DNA from: a virus | DNA length: 34,094 nucleotides | Virus record (IMG/VR): IMGVR_UViG_3300025122_000080 | Coordinates: 1 to 34,094 of that record | Strand: one strand, 5' to 3' | In this document: piece by piece, positions 1 to 20,539 of the stretch | Numbering within the stretch: position 1 is the stretch's first letter | Layout of the letters: each line of letters opens with the position of its first letter | The notes under the pieces: model-generated | The model's input: the letters and a program-made list of their open reading frames with translations, nothing else | Told to the model about the DNA's origin: nothing | Database searches by the model: none | Position numbers and translations under genes: made by a program

Positions 1-280
1 CTGCCGCACCACCATAAATGAACTTGAACCACACTCCCGCCGTAGGCGACGGAAGGGTGAGTGTACGGTTTGAAGTGATCGCCGGAACGACATTGGTCCT
101 GCCAGCGTTAGCGGTAGCAGTCAGAGTGGTATCTTCGTCACCCAATGTAATCGGGGTAACCTGCAACCCCGATCCATCCAAGCTGAATTCAGTTGTAAAT
201 GCACCAGTTGTTGAGCTTTTCGATACTACATCGAATCCGTCTTCGGATCTGACTGGTCCTGAAAAAGTTGTGTTAGCCAT
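1..280 (-). CDS. Virion structural protein, N-terminal part (runs off left edge)
   Basis: The gene starts at an ATG at 280, 9 bases after an AGGAG ribosome-binding site, and stays open to the window edge (about 93 residues visible). It begins MANTTFSGPVRSEDGF and is rich in Thr, Ser and Gly with short beta-like segments, which is typical of phage head or fibre proteins. It lies immediately downstream of the probable major capsid gene, behind a possible terminator. No catalytic motif is visible. A decoration or head-fibre protein is the likeliest role, by position only. Confidence 0.6.
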   Translation of the reverse strand, partial: MANTTFSGPVRSEDGFDVVSKSSTTGAFTTEFSLDGSGLQVTPITLGDEDTTLTATANAGRTNVVPAITSNRTLTLPSPTAGVWFKFIYGGAA

Positions 281-326
281 GAGTTTCTCCTGTCTTGGCT
301 AGTGTCTGCCGATTACTCGACAGTCA

Positions 327-379
327 GGAAAAAAGAATTACACCCTATATGGGGCAGGGGCCGAAGCCCCCACCCCACT
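327..379 (-). terminator. Possible rho-independent terminator after the capsid gene
   Basis: On the minus strand a GGGGC-TTCG-GCCCC hairpin with a UUCG tetraloop, extended by an outer G4/C4 pairing, follows the stop at 387. A run of six T comes about 17 bases later. The gap between stem and T-run is longer than ideal, so this may be a partial terminator that reduces expression of the next gene relative to the capsid protein. Confidence 0.45.
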
Positions 380-2452: not shown

Positions 2453-3453
2453 CAGGCCATCTCCTTGATAAGCTGTGCAGCATACTGCTGTGGCGTTATC
2501 CCCAAGCGGTTCGCGAGTGCGACTTGGGTCGAAGTCAATGTGACTTTGCGTGGCACCGCACCGTTGTTTCTCATAGCTGGTGCAACCACGGGGCTCGCCT
2601 TGCGACGAGTTGCGGGCTCAACGACCATGGACCCCGAAGAGCCTCTGCCGCTGACGCCGAAGTACTCAGGAAACTTCTCCCTCATACGTTTGTCTATTAA
2701 TTCATAGTACTCTTGAGTTTCTGGGTCAATACCTTCTTTCTTGACTAACTTCTCATGCACACCATATGCAAGGCTCGTCATCTCCTCATCATCACCAAAC
2801 CAAGGATTGCTTTGTTGCCATTCCACGGCGGCAGGGTCCGCTGGTGGCGCTTCTGGAGAAGCCTCTGGCCGTTGCTGGGCCTGCTGGCGTTGTTCGGCCA
2901 ATACATTCTGCTTCCACTGCTCTGTGACCCTATTTGACACCGCAGGAGCAGAAGCTTCCGCCAACTGTGCATTGGTCAGAGCCTTTTGTGCCTGAGCAAT
3001 CTGATCCGATTCTCCAGATTCGTGTGCGTGTTTGAAATTAGCTTCGGCTATGGCAACCGCAGCCTGAGCCCCATATGTACTGTGCTGGTTAAGAGCAGAC
3101 TGCGAGTCTTGGACGAGCTTGAGTAGCCGTTGATTTTCGACTTGGAGATTCTGTGTATAGTTCACAGCCTCGCTTGCGAGCCTATCAGACGCTTCTTTTG
3201 CCCTTCGCTCTTCGTGATACTCCCATTTCAGCTTCTTGATGCGTTTCTGGGCACGACTCCCATAGTTTGAGATCTCTTCGTCCGTCGCCATGTCATCATC
3301 TGATGACGTAGCCTCTCCAGCAGGACGCTGATCATCTTCGGGGCGATCATCTACGACCTCGACGTTCACTTCTTCCGATTCGGGAACTTCAATAGTATGT
3401 CTGACACCCAAAAACTTGTCTTCTTCGCTCATTCTTCCGATTTCATCGCTCAT
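2452..3453 (-). CDS. Scaffold-like capsid assembly protein
   Basis: This 333-aa protein has an acidic N-terminal third (about residues 15-60, rich in Glu and Asp). A long helical coiled-coil segment follows (about 65-165), then an Ala/Gln/Pro-rich stretch, a YELIDKRMREKFPEYFGV segment and a basic C-terminal end with KVTLTSTQVALANRLGI. This charged, helical architecture just upstream of the decoration-like and capsid genes is what internal scaffolds look like. The C-terminal basic segment could be the capsid-binding hook, which is inference. It is separated by one base from the GroES-like gene. Confidence 0.7.
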   Translation of the reverse strand: MSDEIGRMSEEDKFLGVRHTIEVPESEEVNVEVVDDRPEDDQRPAGEATSSDDDMATDEEISNYGSRAQKRIKKLKWEYHEERRAKEASDRLASEAVNYTQNLQVENQRLLKLVQDSQSALNQHSTYGAQAAVAIAEANFKHAHESGESDQIAQAQKALTNAQLAEASAPAVSNRVTEQWKQNVLAEQRQQAQQRPEASPEAPPADPAAVEWQQSNPWFGDDEEMTSLAYGVHEKLVKKEGIDPETQEYYELIDKRMREKFPEYFGVSGRGSSGSMVVEPATRRKASPVVAPAMRNNGAVPRKVTLTSTQVALANRLGITPQQYAAQLIKEMA

Positions 3454-3895: not shown

Positions 3896-3940
3896 TGCGA
3901 CCTCTCGTTGAATTGTTGCGCCATGACGGCGGGTTACCAG

Positions 3941-4135
3941 CTAAAAATCCCTCAACTTATCTTCCAAATCTATGATTTCACGTTCCGTCCAAGCCAATCC
4001 ATCTATCGTTCCGCATATCTTTCGATATTCCTCCATGTCCGTGGCGGCACCTACTGCAAGATGATCAGCCAGTACATTCATCTGATCCCTGATCTTCTTT
4101 TTGAGCAACGACAAGACATCTTCACTCACTGTCAT
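3941..4135 (-). CDS. Small head-region protein, unknown function
   Basis: This 64-aa, mostly helical and charged protein starts MTVSEDVLSLLKKKIRDQMN. The ATG at 4135 is chosen because AAAGGATA sits just upstream and it overlaps the portal 3' end by 14 bases; an in-frame ATG at 4174 would bury the start deeper in the portal gene. It contains IIDLEDKLRDF at its C terminus. The order portal, this gene, co-chaperonin, scaffold suggests a minor assembly factor, but nothing specific can be read. Confidence 0.6.
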   Translation of the reverse strand: MTVSEDVLSLLKKKIRDQMNVLADHLAVGAATDMEEYRKICGTIDGLAWTEREIIDLEDKLRDF

Positions 4136-10024: not shown

Positions 10025-10393
10025 ATGGAACATATCAGCACCATAATCAGCAGAATCTTAGGCGTCACGAATTGCCCAAGCTGCGACGGTAACGACAAGG
10101 AAGACGGCCCCGTGCCTAACGAGAAAGATCGAGAGATGTGGATCGATCTCGCGGGGTACTATGTCGAGTGTCCCATGTGTGAAGATGGCCGAGTCTACTG
10201 GGAGGATAATTGGCTCGCGGGTGGGGAGAACCATTGGAGGGCTCGCACTCAGGAATGCGAACATTGCAACGGCTCTGGCGAATTGAAGATCCATGACCGT
10301 TGCGGGACTTGCGGAAGGTTAGAGCAAGCCTATGGCACGGGACCGGAGAGGGTGGACGATGACGATAGGATTCGCAACCACCTAGAATATTAG
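10025..10393 (+). CDS. Four-CxxC zinc protein, copy 1 (DnaJ-like zinc centre)
   Basis: This 122-aa protein has four Cys pairs: CPSC (about 17), CPMC (about 49), CEHC (about 78, continuing as CEHCNGSGEL) and CGTC (about 93). The CxxCxGxG spacing resembles the DnaJ cysteine-rich domain, which uses two zinc ions. Acidic and aromatic residues dominate, and it ends DDDDRIRNHLEY. A second copy at 16148-16519 differs at about 15 of 122 residues. Many of the DNA differences are synonymous, so both copies appear to be under selection. Function unknown; protein or nucleic acid binding through zinc is plausible. Confidence 0.8.
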   Translation: MEHISTIISRILGVTNCPSCDGNDKEDGPVPNEKDREMWIDLAGYYVECPMCEDGRVYWEDNWLAGGENHWRARTQECEHCNGSGELKIHDRCGTCGRLEQAYGTGPERVDDDDRIRNHLEY

Positions 10394-11460: not shown

Positions 11461-11486
11461 AGGTACGGGCGTCGGGTACGGGCGCG
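11461..11486 (+). repeat. 13-bp repeat, tandem pair 1
   Basis: AGGTACGGGCGTC is followed directly by GGGTACGGGCGCG. A run of eight A lies a few bases upstream on the plus strand. Confidence 0.85.
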
Positions 11487-11515
11487 AGGCGCGGAAAATT
11501 TTTTAAATAAAAATT

Positions 11516-11541
11516 AGGTACGGGCGTCGGGTACGGGCGCG
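11516..11541 (+). repeat. 13-bp repeat, tandem pair 2
   Basis: The same two units as pair 1, 55 bp further on. The pair is preceded by an AT-only tract of about 20 bases (AATTTTTTAAATAAAAATT). Confidence 0.85.
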
Positions 11542-11553
11542 AAGGGTAGGCAC

Positions 11554-11587
11554 AAAAAAAAGAGGGCCACCCTTTCGGGTGACCCTC
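11554..11587 (-). terminator. Rho-independent terminator of the DUF932 gene
   Basis: On the minus strand GAGGGTCACCC pairs with GGGTGGCCCTC (11 bp with one T-G pair) around a GAAA tetraloop and is followed by eight T. It sits 21 bases after the stop at 11608. Confidence 0.85.
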
Positions 11588-11607
11588 TCCTCTATCCCCC
11601 CCTCCCC

Positions 11608-12423
11608 TTAGTTGAGTGACAGTGTTTCCTGATTCCGATCTACCCACGTTCCCTCTTGGGTGACTAGTTCCTTTCCTAGTCTGTGGAATCTGGACATCGA
11701 TGTCGGAAGCTCCACGATGTTGCGATCCTTGAGAACCTCAGTGGTGGCGTTATTGAATCCCCACATGGTCGGCTGCTCAAATTCCTCGTGGCTAGGATTC
11801 CGATACTCTTTCAGAATCTTAGGAGCGTATGCCCACGGGAATGCGCGAGCATCGCACAGCCTAACGAGTAGATCGTGGGCCACGTTATCCTCTAGGCTAG
11901 TCTTCTTATAAGACTCGACCAGTTGAGTGTGATCCGTATGTGCTTCGTCAATCTCTCCCGCCAATTGGTTAAGCCGTGACGGTAGAACCTGCCGCACGTT
12001 TACGCTGTGCTTGTGGCTCGCCTTGAATTCTCCCATGAAATCAAGGTTACTGCAAACCATGACAACGAGTCCCGCCACCATGCCCGCCGACATCGTTTTG
12101 TCGTGGCTGTTGCGGATGCCGATAGCTAACTCGTAATCCTGCCCGATGGCTACATCTTCTCTCTGGATTTTCAAGACACCGAATAGCCTTGTGCTATCGT
12201 ATCGGATGTCTTCCCCGCCAACCTCAACCTTCCCGCTTTCCAAAGCGTAACGCTGTTCGGTAATGTCCCAACCGAATCCACCAAGCGTTCGGTTGACCAT
12301 GTCGAGAAACTCACCATGTGGAAGCGGTATGTGGCTCCGCGTTTCCGGCGGTGTCTCTGTCGCTCGCACCTGCTCCTCTGTTACCGTCGTCCCGCCGATG
12401 AGTGTCGTTCTCACGTTCGCCAT
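11608..12423 (-). CDS. DUF932 family protein
   Basis: This 271-aa protein fits the DUF932 family, known from many phages and plasmids and of uncertain function. The central AIGIRNSHDKTMSAGMVAGL followed by VVMVCSNLDF is the recognisable core, and the C-terminal EEFEQPTMWGFNNATTEVLK matches the usual W..YNA.T ending. It has its own promoter (12470-12498), an AGGAGG site before ATG 12423, and a terminator right after it, so it is a single-gene unit. The ending resembles a segment of the protein at 17438-18175. Confidence 0.7.
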   Translation of the reverse strand: MANVRTTLIGGTTVTEEQVRATETPPETRSHIPLPHGEFLDMVNRTLGGFGWDITEQRYALESGKVEVGGEDIRYDSTRLFGVLKIQREDVAIGQDYELAIGIRNSHDKTMSAGMVAGLVVMVCSNLDFMGEFKASHKHSVNVRQVLPSRLNQLAGEIDEAHTDHTQLVESYKKTSLEDNVAHDLLVRLCDARAFPWAYAPKILKEYRNPSHEEFEQPTMWGFNNATTEVLKDRNIVELPTSMSRFHRLGKELVTQEGTWVDRNQETLSLN

Positions 12424-12469
12424 TTTGTTTTCCTCCTGTAGGTGAATGGCCGTTCAATTAACGTATACC

Positions 12470-12498
12470 AATCTACAGTGATCGAGTCACATTGTCAA
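12470..12498 (-). promoter_or_regulatory. Promoter for the DUF932 gene
   Basis: On the minus strand TTGACA (12493-12498), 17 bases, TAGATT (12470-12475). The spacer begins ATGTGAC, matching the NNGTGA motif seen after the -35 at other sites. The ATG lies 46 bases beyond. Confidence 0.7.
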
Positions 12499-12553
12499 CC
12501 ACCATCACCACATTATTTTACCACCATGACCCACACCTATGTTATATTTTTTT

Positions 12554-12579
12554 AGGTACGGGCGTCAGGTACGGGCGCG
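12554..12579 (+). repeat. 13-bp repeat, tandem pair 3, with hairpin
   Basis: AGGTACGGGCGTC is followed directly by AGGTACGGGCGCG, after a run of seven T. The second unit forms one arm of a perfect 9-bp hairpin (GGGCGCGGG at 12573-12581 with CCCGCGCCC at 12590-12598) just beyond the stop of the gene at 12606. Confidence 0.85.
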
Positions 12580-12605
12580 GGACATAAGCCCCGCGCCCTA
12601 TCCCC

Positions 12606-12815
12606 TCAAGTATGTGTGTGTCCATCTGGTTCGACCCCGATGAACATCCTCCCAGACATGACACCGACGTATCCGAACCCCGGTAGCACTTCCACCGGAT
12701 CGGGCAGGTTATGTCTCTGTTGTAATAGCTCCAAGCTATTCCACTGTTCGACCGTTACCTCGTTATCCTTTTCACCTATAAAGATAGGTTGTTTGTTCGG
12801 CCACCGAGCTTTCAT
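12606..12815 (-). CDS. Small unknown phage protein
   Basis: This 69-aa protein begins MKARWPNKQPIFIGEKDNEV and contains QWNSLELLQQRHNLPDPVEV and GFGYVGVMSGRMFIGVEPDG. Its ATG overlaps the stop of the upstream gene (ATGA), and GGGGGACAGC precedes it. It is the third gene of a coupled three-gene set. No family is recognised. Confidence 0.65.
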   Translation of the reverse strand: MKARWPNKQPIFIGEKDNEVTVEQWNSLELLQQRHNLPDPVEVLPGFGYVGVMSGRMFIGVEPDGHTHT

Positions 12816-13051
12816 GCTGTCCCCCTTTCGCTAGGGCGAATCTGATTCCCCCAAGCCCAATGCTCATTGTCTAGATCCACTAACACCTTCCGCTCTACAA
12901 CAGTGTCCCATCCCACAAGCTGTACATCTTCACCATACTTTGAACCATTGGACTCGTTAATCTGAATCCCCCTTACCTTGACTAGTTTCTCAGGATCACT
13001 GCCCCAACCACCACGCCACAAGACCGAGTCTCCTACTTTCAGGTTAGCCAT
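12812..13051 (-). CDS. Small beta-rich unknown protein
   Basis: This 79-aa protein begins MANLKVGDSVLWRGGWGSDP. KVGDSVLWRG...VKVRGIQ looks like an SH3-like or KOW-like beta barrel start. AAGGAGGTGACAGGTTA gives a strong ribosome-binding site, and the ATG shares one base with the upstream stop (TAATG). It is coupled to both neighbours. The function is unknown. Confidence 0.65.
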   Translation of the reverse strand: MANLKVGDSVLWRGGWGSDPEKLVKVRGIQINESNGSKYGEDVQLVGWDTVVERKVLVDLDNEHWAWGNQIRPSERGTA

Positions 13052-13230
13052 TAACCTGTCACCTCCTTGTGGCGATCTTCAAACGTGGTCATCCACTCCA
13101 CCAACAGATCACCCGCCTCTCTACGATCCAACCCAAACGTAGCCTCCACATACTGCCCCGCCCCAAACATATTCGTGACACCCGATTCGCGCAGGTTGTC
13201 CAGATACTCAAAGATCTTTTCCTTGTTCAT
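13051..13230 (-). CDS. Small conserved phage protein
   Basis: This 59-aa frame begins MNKEKIFEYLDNLRESGVTN. It has the pattern of a short phage protein family (EYLDxLRESGxxNMFGAxxY...FGLxRxEAxxLLxEWM) that I recall from many phage genomes without a known role. The ATG at 13230 lies 41 bases past the promoter at 13271-13299 and starts a three-gene coupled operon. Confidence 0.65.
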   Translation of the reverse strand: MNKEKIFEYLDNLRESGVTNMFGAGQYVEATFGLDRREAGDLLVEWMTTFEDRHKEVTG

Positions 13231-13270
13231 CTGACTAGCTCCTTATTGAAAGGGTTGTCTGTCGTACACC

Positions 13271-13299
13271 AATCTATAACAACACTATCACCGTGTCAA
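13271..13299 (-). promoter_or_regulatory. Promoter for the 13230-12606 operon
   Basis: On the minus strand TTGACA (13294-13299), 17 bases beginning CGGTGAT, then TAGATT (13271-13276). The -35 box overlaps the stop of the upstream gene at 13296. Confidence 0.7.
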
Positions 13300-13508
13300 G
13301 ACACTGGGCCTTTAAGACACTGCTGTTCTGGGTATCGGGAGCGAAGACCCTCATCGAATCGTCTAGGCATGACCACCTTCCAATTGCAATCGTCGCAACA
13401 CCGACCTTCTTTTATCGGTTCAGCGTTGTTGCCATGCTCCCACGCCACTTCTCCTGTTGTCGGATGAAGCAGGGGCTTGATCGGTTTCTCGCAGATGACA
13501 CAGTCCAT
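13296..13508 (-). CDS. Small zinc-binding phage protein
   Basis: This 70-aa protein begins MDCVICEKPIKPLLHPTTGE. CVIC near the N terminus and RCCDDC in the middle are probable zinc ligands. The layout CxxC...HP.TGE..W.HGNNA.P...GRCCD.CN...V.PRR is common in short phage proteins of unknown role. GAGAGGATTAAC precedes the ATG, and a near-consensus promoter lies 43 bases upstream. Confidence 0.75.
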   Translation of the reverse strand: MDCVICEKPIKPLLHPTTGEVAWEHGNNAEPIKEGRCCDDCNWKVVMPRRFDEGLRSRYPEQQCLKGPVS

Positions 13509-13550
13509 GTTAATCCTCTCTTGTGGTGGGCCAGTGAACTATCGAGCATT

Positions 13551-13579
13551 AATATAACATGATGATGTCACCATGTCAA
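13551..13579 (-). promoter_or_regulatory. Promoter for the 13508 gene (best match in the window)
   Basis: On the minus strand TTGACA (13574-13579), 17 bases beginning TGGTGAC, then TATATT (13551-13556). Confidence 0.75.
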
Positions 13580-13629
13580 GATGTGACTATGACTATGGCC
13601 ATGGCCTCACATTTTTTTTTAAAAAAATT

Positions 13630-13655
13630 AGGTACGGGCGTTAGGTACGGGCGTC
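13630..13655 (+). repeat. 13-bp repeat, tandem pair 4
   Basis: AGGTACGGGCGTT is followed directly by AGGTACGGGCGTC, after about 20 bases of T then A only. It lies just beyond the stop of the small membrane gene at 13660. Confidence 0.85.
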
Positions 13656-13659
13656 CACC

Positions 13660-13761
13660 CTATATGATATTTAATCCGAAGAGTAACAGCAGGGTTAGGA
13701 CGATCACATACACAACCTCCGAGATAACCTCACCTATTGTCTGTTTCTTTTTGTACGTCAC
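13660..13761 (-). CDS. Small membrane peptide, GTG start
   Basis: This 33-aa peptide has a basic N terminus (KKKQ) and one hydrophobic span near residues 12-31 (VISEVVYVIVLTLLLLFGLN). The GTG at 13761 is chosen because AAAGGAG lies 5 bases upstream and it follows the GP88-family stop by 10 bases. In-frame ATGs at 13794 or 13848 lie inside the upstream gene. Function unknown. Confidence 0.5.
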   Translation of the reverse strand: MTYKKKQTIGEVISEVVYVIVLTLLLLFGLNII

Positions 13762-13771
13762 ACCTTCTCCT

Positions 13772-14392
13772 TTAATGCAGGGGATAGCTGACATTAGATA
13801 CTTCGTGATCCCAACAGGCCCGACAGTCTCCACAATATGGATCTCCATCCTCTACATAAGCGGGGCAAGTATGATCGCCCTTGCTAGTAACGGTAGATGT
13901 GTTCGGAAAGGTAGGCTCAGGTCCGTCAATCATTACAGCCGACAGCCTGACGCACACGTTGGATGGAAACTCTCCATGATCCCGCAAATATTTAAGAACT
14001 AATCCTGTTTCGTGGGTAGGTAGCCAATGCTGTGTGTTAGGCGTCCGTTCACATACTTCTACAATATTTTTTAGGTGCGTCATGTCTTGTACGTCACCGG
14101 AATCTTGCCAACGGAAATAATCTGCCCCGTTAATTCCGCGCACCATGTTGTCTACCCACTTAGGGTGGTACAAAGCATCTAGTCTACGCTGTAAAGCTTC
14201 CTGAACTACTGGCCTAGCGTAGTGACCACGCCCCGCATAGCACTTAGAACATATGGTGCCCGGAACTTCAGCTAATTTTGCGCCCACATTGCAATGCTCG
14301 ACAGATAAAGAGATCGCACGACAGGGCATCTTGCTGGGATTAGAGAATCCGCCGACCGATTCCCGAGCTTGCTTGACAGTTTGAAGTTTCAT
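13772..14392 (-). CDS. GP88-family phage protein
   Basis: This 206-aa protein resembles the phage 'gene product 88' family. Near residues 43-60 it has VPGTICSKCYAGRGHYARPV, followed by NMVRGINGADYFRWQDSGDV, NTQHWLPTHETGLVLKYL and SNVCVRLSAVMIDG. A C-terminal Cys cluster, CPAYVEDGDPYCGDCRACW, could hold zinc or an iron-sulphur site. The enzymatic activity of the family is not established to my knowledge. It is the first gene after promoter 14436-14464. Confidence 0.75.
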   Translation of the reverse strand: MKLQTVKQARESVGGFSNPSKMPCRAISLSVEHCNVGAKLAEVPGTICSKCYAGRGHYARPVVQEALQRRLDALYHPKWVDNMVRGINGADYFRWQDSGDVQDMTHLKNIVEVCERTPNTQHWLPTHETGLVLKYLRDHGEFPSNVCVRLSAVMIDGPEPTFPNTSTVTSKGDHTCPAYVEDGDPYCGDCRACWDHEVSNVSYPLH

Positions 14393-14435
14393 AGCGTCCC
14401 CGTCTATATCACGTTGTGATTATCGGAACTCATGT

Positions 14436-14464
14436 AACCTATATGATCAGTGCCACCCTGTCAA
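14436..14464 (-). promoter_or_regulatory. Promoter for the GP88-family gene
   Basis: On the minus strand TTGACA (14459-14464), 17 bases beginning GGGTGGC, then TAGGTT (14436-14441). The ATG at 14392 is 43 bases beyond. Confidence 0.7.
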
Positions 14465-14663
14465 GGCCCAACACAAAAGGATTTCTCTCTCTATATAGAG
14501 GGTGGGAGTCACTACTAGTAGTCTACTGTTTCTTTCTACCCGTTCGAGAAGACTACAACACACTCAAACTGATTTTTACTTACCAGTTAACCAGTTCGAA
14601 ACCCTGTCTAGATAGTCTAGGTAGTGTGGACCCTCTGTCAAGGGGTAAAATCTGCCTCCAAGC

Positions 14664-14678
14664 AGGTACGGGCGTCAG
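14664..14678 (+). repeat. 13-bp repeat, single copy a
   Basis: AGGTACGGGCGTC followed by AG. Confidence 0.85.
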
Positions 14679-14703
14679 ATATGAGTTTTTTTTATAAATT
14701 TTC

Positions 14704-14718
14704 AGGTACGGGCGTCAG
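14704..14718 (+). repeat. 13-bp repeat, single copy b
   Basis: AGGTACGGGCGTC followed by AG, 40 bp after copy a and preceded by an AT-rich tract. Confidence 0.85.
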
Positions 14719-14756
14719 ATCTCGACCAATTTGGGCTATCTGTTTAATAGTTTTTC

Positions 14757-14771
14757 AGGTACGGGCGTCAG
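14757..14771 (+). repeat. 13-bp repeat, single copy c
   Basis: AGGTACGGGCGTC followed by AG, 53 bp after copy b and preceded by TTTTTC. Confidence 0.85.
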
Positions 14772-14797
14772 ACTACTAGTAATCTTGTAACTATCCT

Positions 14798-14812
14798 AGG
14801 TACGGGCGTCAG
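14798..14812 (+). repeat. 13-bp repeat, single copy d
   Basis: AGGTACGGGCGTC followed by AG, 41 bp after copy c; the last copy seen in the window. Confidence 0.85.
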
Positions 14813-14896
14813 AATGGACAGCCTAGCCGAATCAGTGCCTCAGAAAGAGCCTCTGCGCTAGATATCTCTGGATAGCGACTACTCCCACAGGGTATA

Positions 14897-15334
14897 TCAA
14901 TTCATTGGGATGTTGAGGTCTTCCAATTTTTCTCTCAGTTCTTTTTCTACATCTTCTGCACTTCTGTGTACTACTGTGACGTTGGTACTATCGTCAAATA
15001 ATTTTTCAGTTTTGGCTAAGATTTCTAGGGCTCTCACTCGTACAGACGGATTATTCTCATCGCACGAGGCTTCAGCACGCAACTTATCTAGTATCCAATC
15101 TTTAGAGATTCCTTTGTGGGTTTCTTTAGCCTTTTCTTTTTGTTTTTTAATTTCGTCCACTCTACTTCTAATCTTCTCCATGGACATGAGTTTAGATCCT
15201 TCGGTTGACGCGGATCTACGCGACAATTTTTTCACATTATAGGCTTGGAGGTAGCTATCTGTCTGGCTATTGCCATCGGCCACGAACGCACAGAACGCCC
15301 TTTGTTTTTCTGATAGGGTGGTGCCCTGTTTCAT
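14897..15334 (-). CDS. terS: Terminase small subunit
   Basis: This 145-aa protein begins with a helix-turn-helix like that of Terminase_2 small subunits: LSEKQRAFCAFVADGNSQTD, then SYLQAYNVKK and a conserved Ser/Lys region. A helical oligomerisation segment follows (SRVDEIKKQKEKAKE and beyond), then ISKDWILDKLRAEA. It would recognise the packaging site and hand DNA to TerL. It has its own promoter (15361-15389) and lies about 5.7 kb from terL, which is separated from it by two other gene groups. Confidence 0.8.
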   Translation of the reverse strand: MKQGTTLSEKQRAFCAFVADGNSQTDSYLQAYNVKKLSRRSASTEGSKLMSMEKIRSRVDEIKKQKEKAKETHKGISKDWILDKLRAEASCDENNPSVRVRALEILAKTEKLFDDSTNVTVVHRSAEDVEKELREKLEDLNIPMN

Positions 15335-16147: not shown

Positions 16148-16519
16148 ATGCTAGAACACATCAGCACCATAATCAGCCGAGTCTTGGGAGCCACAAGTTG
16201 CCCAGACTGTGACGGTAACGACAAGAACGACGGCCCCGTGCCGAACGAGAAAGATCGAGAGATGTGGATCGATCTCGCAGGGTACTATGTCGAGTGTCCC
16301 ATGTGCGAAGATGGTCGAGTCTACTGGGAAGACAATTGGCTTGCAGGTGGAGAGAATCGTTGGCGTGCTCATAACGCCGACTGCGAACACTGCAAGGGCT
16401 CCGGAGAATTGAGAATCCACGACCGATGTGGGACTTGCGGAAGGTTAGAGCAAGCCTATGGCAAGGGACCGGAAAGGGTGGACGATGATGATAGGATACG
16501 CGACCACCTAGAATATTAG
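16148..16519 (+). CDS. Four-CxxC zinc protein, copy 2
   Basis: This 123-aa protein is a paralogue of the one at 10025-10393. It has CPDC, CPMC, CEHC and CGTC at the same spacing and an identical 38-residue core running from DGPVPNEKDREMWIDLAG to the EDNWLAGGEN end, with about 88 percent identity overall. Differences cluster near the N terminus and around CEHC. The flanking hairpins have the same design but different sequence, so regulation was kept while the DNA drifted. The function is unknown. Confidence 0.8.
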   Translation: MLEHISTIISRVLGATSCPDCDGNDKNDGPVPNEKDREMWIDLAGYYVECPMCEDGRVYWEDNWLAGGENRWRAHNADCEHCKGSGELRIHDRCGTCGRLEQAYGKGPERVDDDDRIRDHLEY

Positions 16520-17437: not shown

Positions 17438-18175
17438 TCAATCCTTAGCGGTATGGAACCTTTCGATGGCCGCAGAAACGTGAGGCAGAGCGGCGAGCCT
17501 ACTCGACTCCACCCGCACACTAGACTGATCCATTTTGGAGGCGTTGTAGGCCATCCGATACGCAACCACCAACTTTTCGCCTCCTGCCACCAACTCAGCG
17601 AAGTGAGTCTGTTTAGGCGTCAGGTTGCGCGTGAGCGAAGGGCCAGCATTCGGAGACATATTATGTGCGCGACTATCTGAATCCTCTTCCTCATCAGAGG
17701 TGTAACTAATGAGTGGCTGTATCATTACCCTGAACGCATCAAACCATCCAAACTTGTTACGCATAATAGATTGTTGACGTTCATTGTTTGCCCGTGCAAC
17801 ACCTGTTAGATAAGGCTTGTTGTAAGTCTTCCTGTAGTCTCTGACCTCTTTCTCACTCTGAGCTATGTAGATGCCGTGCGTACAGTGGAGGACGGGAAGT
17901 ACCAGTTCCTTGGCACAGTAAAAATTGAACCTTGGGTGATGGGAGTTGAACCAAGATCTAGTTGGCCTCTCAAACTCTTTAATCGTTGGGTCCCACAACC
18001 CTACTACGGTATCCCAAAGAAATTCTTTGGACTTAGCCCTAGCCTGACCCATACAATGTTCTCTCAGTAATTTCACAAGCACATCGTAATAAACAACTTC
18101 CTTCCTGCTCCACTCTGACAAGCCCTTCTCATCCGTTGGCTCGTCCGCCCTCGCCATCTCCATTCCGTTAGACAT
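17438..18175 (-). CDS. Two-part protein with terminase-small-subunit-like C terminus
   Basis: This 245-aa protein ends (about 183-240) with LTPKQTHFAELVAGGEKLVV, AYRMAYNASKM and SSRLAALPHVSAAIERF, the DNA-binding helix-turn-helix of Terminase_2 small subunits without the oligomerisation part. The N-terminal part contains LVKLL...DPTIKEFERPTRSWFNS, which resembles the C-terminal end of the DUF932 protein at 11608-12423 (LVRLC...NPSHEEFEQPTMWGFNN). An acidic linker (SDEEEDSDS) joins the halves. It may be a chimera acting as a DNA-binding regulator; a second small terminase is less likely because a complete terS exists. It overlaps the ParB-like gene by 8 bases. Confidence 0.65.
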   Translation of the reverse strand: MSNGMEMARADEPTDEKGLSEWSRKEVVYYDVLVKLLREHCMGQARAKSKEFLWDTVVGLWDPTIKEFERPTRSWFNSHHPRFNFYCAKELVLPVLHCTHGIYIAQSEKEVRDYRKTYNKPYLTGVARANNERQQSIMRNKFGWFDAFRVMIQPLISYTSDEEEDSDSRAHNMSPNAGPSLTRNLTPKQTHFAELVAGGEKLVVAYRMAYNASKMDQSSVRVESSRLAALPHVSAAIERFHTAKD

Positions 18176-19082
18176 TAGAGAGAACCTCGTCTAAGGCGAT
18201 AATTTCTTTTGTAATAATGCTGTGCCTACGGGCAGTAAAACGGATTGCCTCTGGAGAAAATCTGGCGGGAGATTCTGACGCCTCTTTAATTGCATCACGA
18301 TACGCAGTCATTGCGTCCATGTAATCCTTCACTATCGGCTCGTCTGTTATCTCCGCCGATCTACGTTTTTCAGCCTTGCGATCAGCAGCCATGCTTGTAG
18401 CCCTGAGTTCCTGCTCAAAGCTGAAATCTCTACGCTTCGGGTGGCGCACCTTAATCACCCTGCTCTTTTCCTTTGCGCCTGATGCGGCGTTGTAGGCCGC
18501 CAACACCTCTTCTGTTTGACCTAAATTCAATTCCTCCGAAGTAAATTTATCAGCGACCTTCCGCTTCGCTTTCCAGTCACCCTTTGCCGCCATGGCTTTG
18601 GCAGTTTTTCTTAAAGATATTTTTCCATCACTATTATATACTACGACTCCATGATCCAGTCCCTTCAATGCTAGCATTAATCTATTTATTGTAACTTGGG
18701 TACACCCTACCATCTGTGCCAATTCAGTTTGGCTACAGCCAAACTTCTCTAAAAGATTCGCATAGCCACGAGCTTTTTCGACAACACCAACATCCTCTCG
18801 ACATTCATTTTCCAATACCTGTTTCAGTAACGCTTCCGAATCATCAACATCCTCCACGATAGCCGCTATCGTTTCAAGTCCAGCCCTCCTCGACGCTTCA
18901 GTTCTACGATGACCGTAAACAATTTCATAGCCCTTGCCGTTTCGGCGTACCTTGATGGGCACCTCCTGCCCCTGCTCCTTGATAGATAAGGCCAGTGCAT
19001 CCAAACCTTCTTCGTCAAACGTGACACGAACCTGATCCTTCGATGGCCTCAGATCCTTGAGCGGTACATTCTCTACAATCAT
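18168..19082 (-). CDS. ParB-like protein with ParB/Sulfiredoxin domain
   Basis: This 304-aa protein starts at the ATG at 19082, because AAAGGGGG sits 6 bases upstream; the ATG at 19088 is too close to that site. The N-terminal domain has VPLKDLRPSKDQVRVTFDEE, KEQGQEVPIKVRR and YGHRRTEASRRAGL, in the arrangement of ParB boxes I and II (GHRR is the CTP-binding or catalytic site in the superfamily). CSQTELAQMVGCTQVTINRL follows, a helix-turn-helix. The C-terminal half is basic and helical. It could bind partition-type sites, regulate transcription or act as a nuclease. The 13-bp repeats are natural candidates for its targets, which is untested inference. Confidence 0.85.
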   Translation of the reverse strand: MIVENVPLKDLRPSKDQVRVTFDEEGLDALALSIKEQGQEVPIKVRRNGKGYEIVYGHRRTEASRRAGLETIAAIVEDVDDSEALLKQVLENECREDVGVVEKARGYANLLEKFGCSQTELAQMVGCTQVTINRLMLALKGLDHGVVVYNSDGKISLRKTAKAMAAKGDWKAKRKVADKFTSEELNLGQTEEVLAAYNAASGAKEKSRVIKVRHPKRRDFSFEQELRATSMAADRKAEKRRSAEITDEPIVKDYMDAMTAYRDAIKEASESPARFSPEAIRFTARRHSIITKEIIALDEVLSNV

Positions 19083-19104
19083 TTTCATCCCCCTTTTACA
19101 ATTT

Positions 19105-19597: not shown

Positions 19598-20071
19598 TCA
19601 GTTGATGGTCACATCGGAAGGGTCAAGTGTTATGCCTAGGTTAGTGCCCACCCTCTTCATAAACACAGGCTTTAAGGTCTTCACCAAAGGACTGTCATCA
19701 CCTACTTCCTTAGCTTTATCTAGCATATCCTTAGTGATCTTATCGTCGCTCAACCACGGATGGAGATCCCTCATGTCACTCAACAGAAATGCAACAAGCA
19801 ACGACTCTCCGTCACCCTTCGTGAAAACCGCTTCTATGTTCGCATCACAATTACAAGAATAAAGGTGGGCAAGTGCCTCATCCGATGTGGCTCCATGCTC
19901 ACCAATCATATCTTTGCTATGTTTTTCTTTTCCTATGTACTGAAAGATGTGGCAACCATCTTCATGCAAAGTTTCGATAGTCACCATCGACTCATTGTCT
20001 CTGGCTAGACTATCTACTATCAACACGATGCAGGAGATCGCATCACCATTGTTGTCTTCTAATTCCACCAC
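19598..20071 (-). CDS. Unknown acidic protein of the DNA-metabolism operon
   Basis: This 157-aa protein begins MVELEDNNGDAISCIVLIVD. It is acidic, with an N-terminal alpha/beta region (VTIETLHEDGCHIFQYIG), a Cys pair in YSCNCDANIEAV, and a helical C terminus. Its start overlaps the ribbon-helix-helix gene by 13 bases. No family is recognised. Confidence 0.6.
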   Translation of the reverse strand: MVELEDNNGDAISCIVLIVDSLARDNESMVTIETLHEDGCHIFQYIGKEKHSKDMIGEHGATSDEALAHLYSCNCDANIEAVFTKGDGESLLVAFLLSDMRDLHPWLSDDKITKDMLDKAKEVGDDSPLVKTLKPVFMKRVGTNLGITLDPSDVTIN

Positions 20072-20277
20072 TGATCTCCCTTTTTTTTGACAGCCCGCGG
20101 AGATGATGGTGCCTCCGTCAACCTCTCGACGTACTCTCTGAGTATATCACGGAGCAACTGTGACGTACTCACACCCTTCCCTTTAGCTAACCCACGGAGG
20201 GTGGAGAGTATATCACCCTCCACCCTCAGTAGGAATTTGACCTTGCTAGAAGGGGAGTCCATCATCCTCTTCGTCAT
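20059..20277 (-). CDS. Ribbon-helix-helix DNA-binding protein
   Basis: About 72 aa. SSKVKFLLRVEGDILSTLRG forms the strand and first helix, and GVSTSQLLRDILREYVERL the second helix of an Arc/CopG-type fold. A basic tail ends KKKGDQWWN. Several ATGs are possible (20277, 20265, 20262). The first is preceded by TAGGTGGTG and is preferred; all overlap the end of the SSB-like gene. It probably represses a phage promoter, perhaps one of the TTGACA-NNGTGA set. Confidence 0.7.
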   Translation of the reverse strand: MTKRMMDSPSSKVKFLLRVEGDILSTLRGLAKGKGVSTSQLLRDILREYVERLTEAPSSPRAVKKKGDQWWN

Positions 20278-20539
20278 CACCACCTACCAGAACATTCTCT
20301 ATCGGAAGGATCTCTAGACGAGCGTTCTCATAATCGATGCCCTTCTTGGATGTCCTGTTCCAGATAGCTACCCGAACCGTAGGCATCTCGCCTTCCTTCG
20401 CGTGAGATACCATCTCCTTTAGAAACTCCCTAGTGAATTCAATTTTCCCCGACTTCACCGGAGCTTTAGAATTTTCTTTGAACTGATTCTTGAAGATTGC
20501 AAAATCAATCTTAACTACGTTTTCGTATTGACTAGCCAT
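20246..20539 (-). CDS. Single-stranded DNA-binding-like protein with SSB-type acidic tail
   Basis: This 97-aa protein ends GGDDEEDDGLPF, very like the DDDIPF tip through which SSB proteins recruit replication and repair partners. The body (VKIDFAIFKNQF, MPTVRVAIWNRTSKKGIDYE, ARLEILPIE) is beta-rich and could be a small OB-type fold. It sits directly after the DUF1071 annealing protein (8-base overlap), a common pairing in phage recombination modules. The body is not an obvious SSB by eye, so the name relies on tail and context. Confidence 0.6.
   Translation of the reverse strand: MASQYENVVKIDFAIFKNQFKENSKAPVKSGKIEFTREFLKEMVSHAKEGEMPTVRVAIWNRTSKKGIDYENARLEILPIENVLVGGDDEEDDGLPF

Follow-up and report, generated by a model that had tools for sequence, protein, structure and literature searches.

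The stretch of DNA analysed here, the 34,094 nucleotides of the IMG/VR virus record IMGVR_UViG_3300025122_000080 (called the window, at its full length, throughout), was part of the genome of an uncultured tailed phage and contained a family of short direct repeats in the gaps of a minus-strand gene island. Genes for the major capsid protein, portal, large terminase (TerL), primase-helicase and exonuclease were recognised in it, together with a Sak annealing protein and a large polyvalent protein, the domain of which was detected in a relative's copy. The island itself encoded the small terminase subunit (TerS), a GP88-family protein, small genes and a DUF932 protein. In the sense of transcription (the minus strand in the window) the core of the repeat read ACGYCCGTACC, and its copies were grouped in arrays, labelled A to D below. 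All sequences analysed, the window included, were metagenomic fragments. The features of the island were as follows:

11461-11486, minus strand: outer tandem pair of array D, two copies of ACGYCCGTACC, between convergent genes; conserved in relatives G001 and G002
11487-11515: AT-rich tract separating the two D pairs (AT 1.00 over the 16 bases before 11516)
11516-11541, minus strand: inner tandem pair of array D, past DUF932 and the hairpin that follows it
11554-11588, minus strand: hairpin and 8-T run, GAGAGGGTCACCCGAAAGGGTGGCCCTCTTTTTTTT, a likely intrinsic terminator behind DUF932, called from the sequence and not listed by a simple scan
11608-12423, minus strand: DUF932 gene (Pfam PF06067, E 3.7e-6), with an array on either side in the relatives covering the region
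12470-12498, minus strand: sigma70-type promoter of DUF932, TTGACA-17-TAGATT, by consensus
12554-12579, minus strand: tandem pair of array C; its first copy in sense order doubles as the 3' arm of a hairpin at 12573-12598
13271-13299, minus strand: sigma70-type promoter without an array, inside the B-C segment, by consensus
13551-13579, minus strand: sigma70-type promoter, TTGACA-17-TATATT, by consensus
13630-13655, minus strand: tandem pair of array B, 4 bp past the stop codon of the small gene 13660-13848
13772-14392, minus strand: GP88-family gene (PF17338, E 7e-24)
14614-14641, minus strand: sigma70-type promoter, TTGACA-16-TAGACT, 23 bp past the last single site
14664-14676, minus strand: single site 1 of array A
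14704-14716, minus strand: single site 2 of array A
14757-14769, minus strand: single site 3 of array A
14798-14810, minus strand: single site 4 of array A, behind terS; the spacing 40(41)-53-41 is maintained in close relatives
14897-15334, minus strand: small terminase subunit gene (Terminase_2, Pfam E 7.9e-9; similar to Pam5 TerS, PDB 21di, E 9e-4)

The 9-mer GTACGGGCG was present in exactly 12 copies between 11463 and 14808, all on the plus strand (starting at 11463, 11476, 11518, 11531, 12556, 12569, 13632, 13645, 14666, 14706, 14759 and 14800), as against an expected 0.15 +/- 0.39 copies, and 2 at the most, in dinucleotide shuffles. A first-pass annotation, made from the letters of the window, had counted a 13-mer 12 times; the exact AGGTACGGGCGTC occurred only 8 times, the other four copies deviating from it at 1-3 positions (mostly GGGTACGGGCGCG), and it was the 9-mer core that reached 12. 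Its description of the repeat as confined to one strand and to non-coding DNA was borne out, since all 12 copies were on the plus strand and within four intergenic spacers, as was the layout: four tandem pairs, their copies 13 bp apart, and four singles at intervals of 40, 53 and 41 bp. The AT-rich tract reported ahead of the loci was present at 6-7 of 8. There was no further exact copy of GTACGGGCG in the 34 kb, and zero copies were found in the adjoining spacers of the flanking plus-strand operons and the other listed spacers in 7.7-25.7 kb; the motif was not scattered in coding DNA, and it was conserved in relatives. The strand needed rewording: the motif had been read on the plus strand, whereas the genes served are on the minus strand, where the arrays come after gene 3' ends and before promoters.

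Relatives were collected by scanning IMG/VR with the tandem pattern and the island proteins, which yielded several dozen motif-bearing contigs; some further pattern matches in the same database were in-frame or chance repeats from which the related genes were missing. Within 22 distinct phage contigs, 204 copies were sense and 2 antisense. These copies formed 74 arrays (68 non-redundant) of 1-6 copies, with a spacing of 11-63 bp (13 being the commonest), so that each 11-bp unit is presumably recognised on its own. Arrays were restricted to the accessory gene island, from the small-terminase gene to just past the DUF932 gene: the 52.7-kb relative G001 carried 8 copies, all inside the same island, and other relatives up to 16. 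Column information from 167 non-redundant sites showed that the core was asymmetric, not palindromic, and that conservation outside it was weak, save for an A ahead and a T behind; ten core letters formed the search pattern and were invariant by construction, the flanks being free. One-mismatch searches added hardly more than GGTACGGACG and a few decayed copies, and in certain lineages the unit was longer, ACGTCCGTACC and then either CTTAAC or ATT, with a spacing of 22-24 bp.

The core persisted though protein identity dropped to 48% (DUF932) and 53% (TerS). Genes between the arrays varied among relatives and the arrays remained; DUF932 stayed last, and the small gene at 13660 stayed beside array B. 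Contigs G017 and G018, with TerL 86-87% and TerS 45-48% identical, were without DUF932, the co-directional island and the arrays. This links the arrays with the island and not with packaging, nor with the ribbon-helix-helix (RHH) protein described below as such. That the arrays simply travel with DUF932 was considered and rejected: distant DUF932 homologues in otherwise unrelated phages have no arrays.

Three observations on the surroundings of the arrays in relatives are recorded here. L142 had several copies, 74% alike, of a leader cassette some 97 bp long (2387-2483, 3114-3210 and 3910-3946), behind degenerate sites and before several genes, as if site and promoter had been copied together. 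Array-free relatives carried other tandem repeats behind terS: GTTACTA heptads, and GTTTAAAC and TACTTATAATAAGT, these last two every 14 bp (L125, 8565-8615 and 8739-8800; L124, 4577-4700). A gene for a cysteine-rich protein was present in two closely similar copies, one on each side of the island in the window (10025-10393 and 16148-16519), and the DNA of both matched a single segment of G001 at 89-92%.

Upstream of DUF932 most lineages shared one order: the stop codon, in many cases followed by a hairpin and T-run, then the array, an AT-rich tract, a TTGACA-17-TANATT promoter and the start codon. Promoters were called by consensus (sigma70-type, at least 10/12, within 100 bp of an array). 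Sense promoters were found behind 21 of the 68 arrays, as against 1/68 for the opposite strand and 0/67 ahead of the array; the rate for random positions was 1%. Terminators were present ahead of 6 of 66 arrays (0.8% at random), and AT content was 68% in the 20 bp behind the arrays and 47% in front. The gene ahead of the array was sense-directed in 38 of 44 scorable cases, an approximate figure based on open-frame calls without a gene finder, 20 arrays overlapping a short frame of uncertain reality. The array lay about 23-58 bp from the -35 box of the next promoter; for the DUF932 promoter, the -10 was 77-80 bp away in most lineages. From the last site to the next sense start the distance was 16-483 bp.

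The arrays were not tied to promoters alone. Behind DUF932, in the window and several relatives, the array faced convergent genes, and a promoter-only role fails to explain this end-of-island array. Sites lay immediately ahead of a Shine-Dalgarno sequence in L046, L058 and G010, and certain short gene gaps were little beyond sites plus ribosome-binding site. In L105, G007, L058, L099 and G010 the array behind terS was placed after the TTGACA box, not before; the sites are thus at unit borders, without a fixed place relative to promoters. A site acting as a promoter element at a fixed distance from the -10, as a MotA-like activator box would, was rejected, there being no enrichment (offsets 8-9 with respect to shuffles, 104 terminal sites).

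Around these elements, the island promoters at 12498-12470, 13299-13271, 13579-13551 and 14464-14436 had extra letters in common, GGTGA...ATCA and TAGATTGGTRTACG (in the spacer and around the -10), which suggests a shared origin or a second regulator. A non-coding block of 100-250 nt lay behind terS (14393-14640, minus strand, in the window; same place in L105, G007, L058, L099, G010 and L053), with a TTGACA box and then many ACTAGTT, ACTGGTT and CTAG-rich words; its position was kept and its sequence was not. A structured leader is one possibility for it, an operator made of 7-bp repeats another. A short conserved block, TGATATACCC...AGCGCAGAGGCTCTTTC, followed the terS stop codon in most relatives (14811-14896 in the window). 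It was considered as a boxA/nut element and rejected as such, not being conserved in G006, L046 and L058.

The arrays are best read as asymmetric protein-binding sites that bound the transcription units of the island and would block or silence transcription one way, like the operators/stoperators of phage L5; this reading is tentative, with a probability of about 0.42. Among the functions proposed in the first-pass annotation, sites for a repressor or silencing protein fitted best. A protein, probably a phage-coded, sequence-specific DNA-binding one, would bind the ACGYCCGTACC sites, 1-6 per array, in a fixed direction relative to transcription, and act on the host RNA polymerase in one direction. 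Transcription arriving from the gene ahead of the array would be stopped or silenced, and the next unit, often with its own sigma70 promoter some 23-58 bp behind the array, would thereby be insulated or switched off. The gene gaps of little more than sites and a ribosome-binding site fit a block of elongation, which we infer as the effect of binding. What can be read directly from the DNA is the site itself, its direction and place, its conservation and the promoter that often follows. Several points weigh against this reading: promoters followed just a third to two fifths of the arrays in the consensus scan; the sites were limited to one island, not genome-wide as in L5; the island genes all run in one direction, so that orientation to transcription is confounded with orientation to the genome; the promoter-bearing island gap 13231-13295 had no site; there was no sign of lysogeny that would require silencing, neither integrase nor ParA being found; and the only widespread candidate binders with a known DNA-binding fold, TerS and RHH, both have homologues in the array-free G018.

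The L5 sites are 13-bp and asymmetric; they occur at promoters and in short gaps between genes, are oriented with transcription and do not work when reversed (PMC9283540, PMC6550527). Like the stoperators of the cluster A mycobacteriophages, to which L5 belongs, the present repeats were an asymmetric site of about 13 bp with a conserved core in a lineage-wide family, oriented with transcription (204 vs. 2, confounded with genome strand) and placed in promoter regions and short gene gaps. Unlike them (20-30 sites across the genome), they numbered 8-16 copies in one island, mostly in tandem or spaced arrays. Cluster A phages are temperate, with integrase or parABS, whereas integrase and ParA were not found in these incomplete genomes; nor was the phage a mycobacteriophage, and no repressor of the cluster A family was identified in a search that covered the HTH_3 profile. 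From this comparison, the arrays would best be taken to work like stoperators, and they are not filed as members of that family because they occupy one island only and no repressor, integrase or ParA was found.

Other repeat systems resembled them in part. The 17-bp repeats of cluster O mycobacteriophages (PMC4351075) also belong to a lytic-looking phage with many intergenic copies and a ParB-like gene without a partition system, but are symmetric, with one third inside genes. The Start Associated Sequences of cluster K mycobacteriophages (PMC3203893) are likewise 13-bp, asymmetric, essentially in one orientation and in the non-structural gene region, but contain a Shine-Dalgarno core 3-7 bp before the start codon, whereas the present sites come after gene ends and in many cases before promoters. 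The pac repeats of SPP1/SF6, to which the small terminase binds (PMC4737164), share direct repeats and AT-rich flexible DNA near terS; the SPP1 pac is a single locus, whereas the present arrays were at several gene borders and missing in relatives retaining the terminase.

Polar asymmetric intergenic sites were known, in the literature searched, from actinobacteriophages, where they silence prophages. If the stoperator-like reading is true, an unrelated clade of podovirus type, in which no lysogeny genes were recognised, uses one-way sites to partition its accessory genes, and the short, highly conserved site could serve as bait for the direct capture of the putative binding protein.

Several other explanations were weighed. 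The sites might be upstream activator sites, at which a phage protein 23-58 bp upstream of the -35 helps the host RNA polymerase to start; the strong enrichment of sense promoters right behind the arrays and the 77-80 bp to the DUF932 -10 in most lineages speak for this, but array-promoter distances ran from 45 to 81 bp and above without helical phasing (R 0.11 at 10.5 bp, n=43), one conserved array has only convergent genes behind it, and certain arrays abut the ribosome-binding site and are not followed by a promoter, which makes activation doubtful. Rather unlikely is a one-way transcription insulator not described before, with a binder that has no known relative in the role (for example the small terminase, or the Arc-like ribbon-helix-helix protein, with a second role as a polar block to elongation), by which a lytic phage would keep its accessory genes separately switched. 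A protein could instead act on the transcript, ACGYCCGUACC, to cause termination, antitermination or a translation block. The strict sense orientation, a tract first T-rich and then A-rich that lies 4-19 nt past terminal sites, and the adjoining Shine-Dalgarno sequences in L046, L058 and G010 would suit such an RNA element; certain arrays, however, lay between a strong intrinsic terminator and a promoter, on DNA expected to be hardly transcribed, and the spacer to the T-rich tract was variable, so that this explanation is improbable.

Binding of the repeats by TerS (14897-15334), with array A as a pac or cosB-like region, is quite improbable: G017 and G018 keep TerL and TerS without island or arrays, three to four extra arrays at 1-kb steps would be useless for pac, and the DNA-binding domain of SF6 TerS has little sequence specificity (PMC4737164), although array A was behind terS in the relatives covering the region and the SPP1 pac near terS has direct repeats and bendable AT-rich DNA, with a TerS complex that represses transcription (PMC4737164). 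Repeats at unit borders might also be anchors letting the Sak annealing protein swap accessory genes, as the changing gene content between persistent arrays and the presence of a Sak-type annealing protein and an exonuclease would allow. This was judged very improbable, with little shuffling (DUF932 last, the 13660 gene by array B), alignment breaks between the window and G001 that do not coincide with sites, and a conserved 11-bp core with variable flanks pointing to protein recognition. Replication-origin iterons, one of the functions proposed in the first-pass annotation, found no support: direct repeats do adjoin AT-rich tracts (AT 0.68 behind the arrays, 0.47 before), but four to five separate arrays at successive gene boundaries, about 1 kb apart in the window, promoters behind them far above chance, a cumulative GC skew that falls almost steadily along the 52.7-kb relative without an origin signal, and no recognised initiator protein make this highly improbable. 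Use of the arrays by the ParB-like protein, whether for partition, as also proposed there, or otherwise, is hardly credible. In its favour, the ParB gene is in the same genome; against it, the repeat is asymmetric, and the gene was absent from four array contigs spanning its region. As a general explanation it is refuted, arrays being kept in ParB-free relatives and ParA not found in the six contigs searched.

The proteins considered as binders included two encoded beyond the island:

18168-19088, minus strand: ParB-like gene, rejected as general binder
20059-20283, minus strand: ribbon-helix-helix protein RHH_1, candidate binder

In an iterated profile search the ParB gene was missing from G007, G010, L099 and L105, all with arrays; a Pfam ParB_N search gave none in G007, G010 and G006, all with full arrays, G006 ending before the ParB place. 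Six contigs were searched for a ParA-type ATPase, and none turned up. TerS was found in 17 array-bearing contigs covering its region, and both TerS and DUF932 were present in array contigs wherever the region was covered; RHH, the 19598-20071 protein and the SSB-like 20246-20539 protein were in all eight searched contigs covering their operon. The RHH protein, put forward in the first-pass annotation, stays a candidate, though the array-free G018 encodes a homologue. Since the TerS and RHH of the array-free G017/G018 relatives differ at presumed DNA-contact residues, both proteins remain candidates. DUF932 and the 19598-20071 protein were rejected as DNA-binding folds (AlphaFold2 pLDDT 64 and 70, no significant PDB match). 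There was no HTH_3 match besides the ParB gene, the stoperator repressor family itself not having been searched by profile. Beside the ParB gene, which has no ParA, an overlapping gene (17438-18175) encoded a second protein resembling the small terminase subunit, with additional sequence at the N-terminus; the two formed an optional cassette, seemingly gained and lost together.

The terminase of the window was closest to those of HTVC027P, HTVC023P, DSL-LC04 and the Planktothrix/Synechococcus phages Pag-Yong1 and MinM2, and its primase-helicase to those of Pag-Yong1 and MinM2. A DNA search against named phage records gave no match to the window or the motif, and no array was found in three of the best TerL relatives (DSL-LC04, 023Pt_psg01 and Pag-Yong1, 50 kb each searched). 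In bacterial genomes the tandem pattern had 23 scattered matches, mostly in GC-rich actinobacteria, taken as chance given the pattern length. A sigma region 4 search found none, and an Rfam scan gave no family at the arrays. Elsewhere in the window, the Rfam family Mu-gpT-DE RNA matched at 278-329, minus strand, downstream of the major capsid gene (56.4 bits, gathering 49). Pag-Yong1 (L044) carried a different word, CAGGCTGAACCGGA, in about 13-17 copies (e.g. 14690, 15602, 20982 and 21244), at least one of which lay at a gene border; this may be an analogous family.

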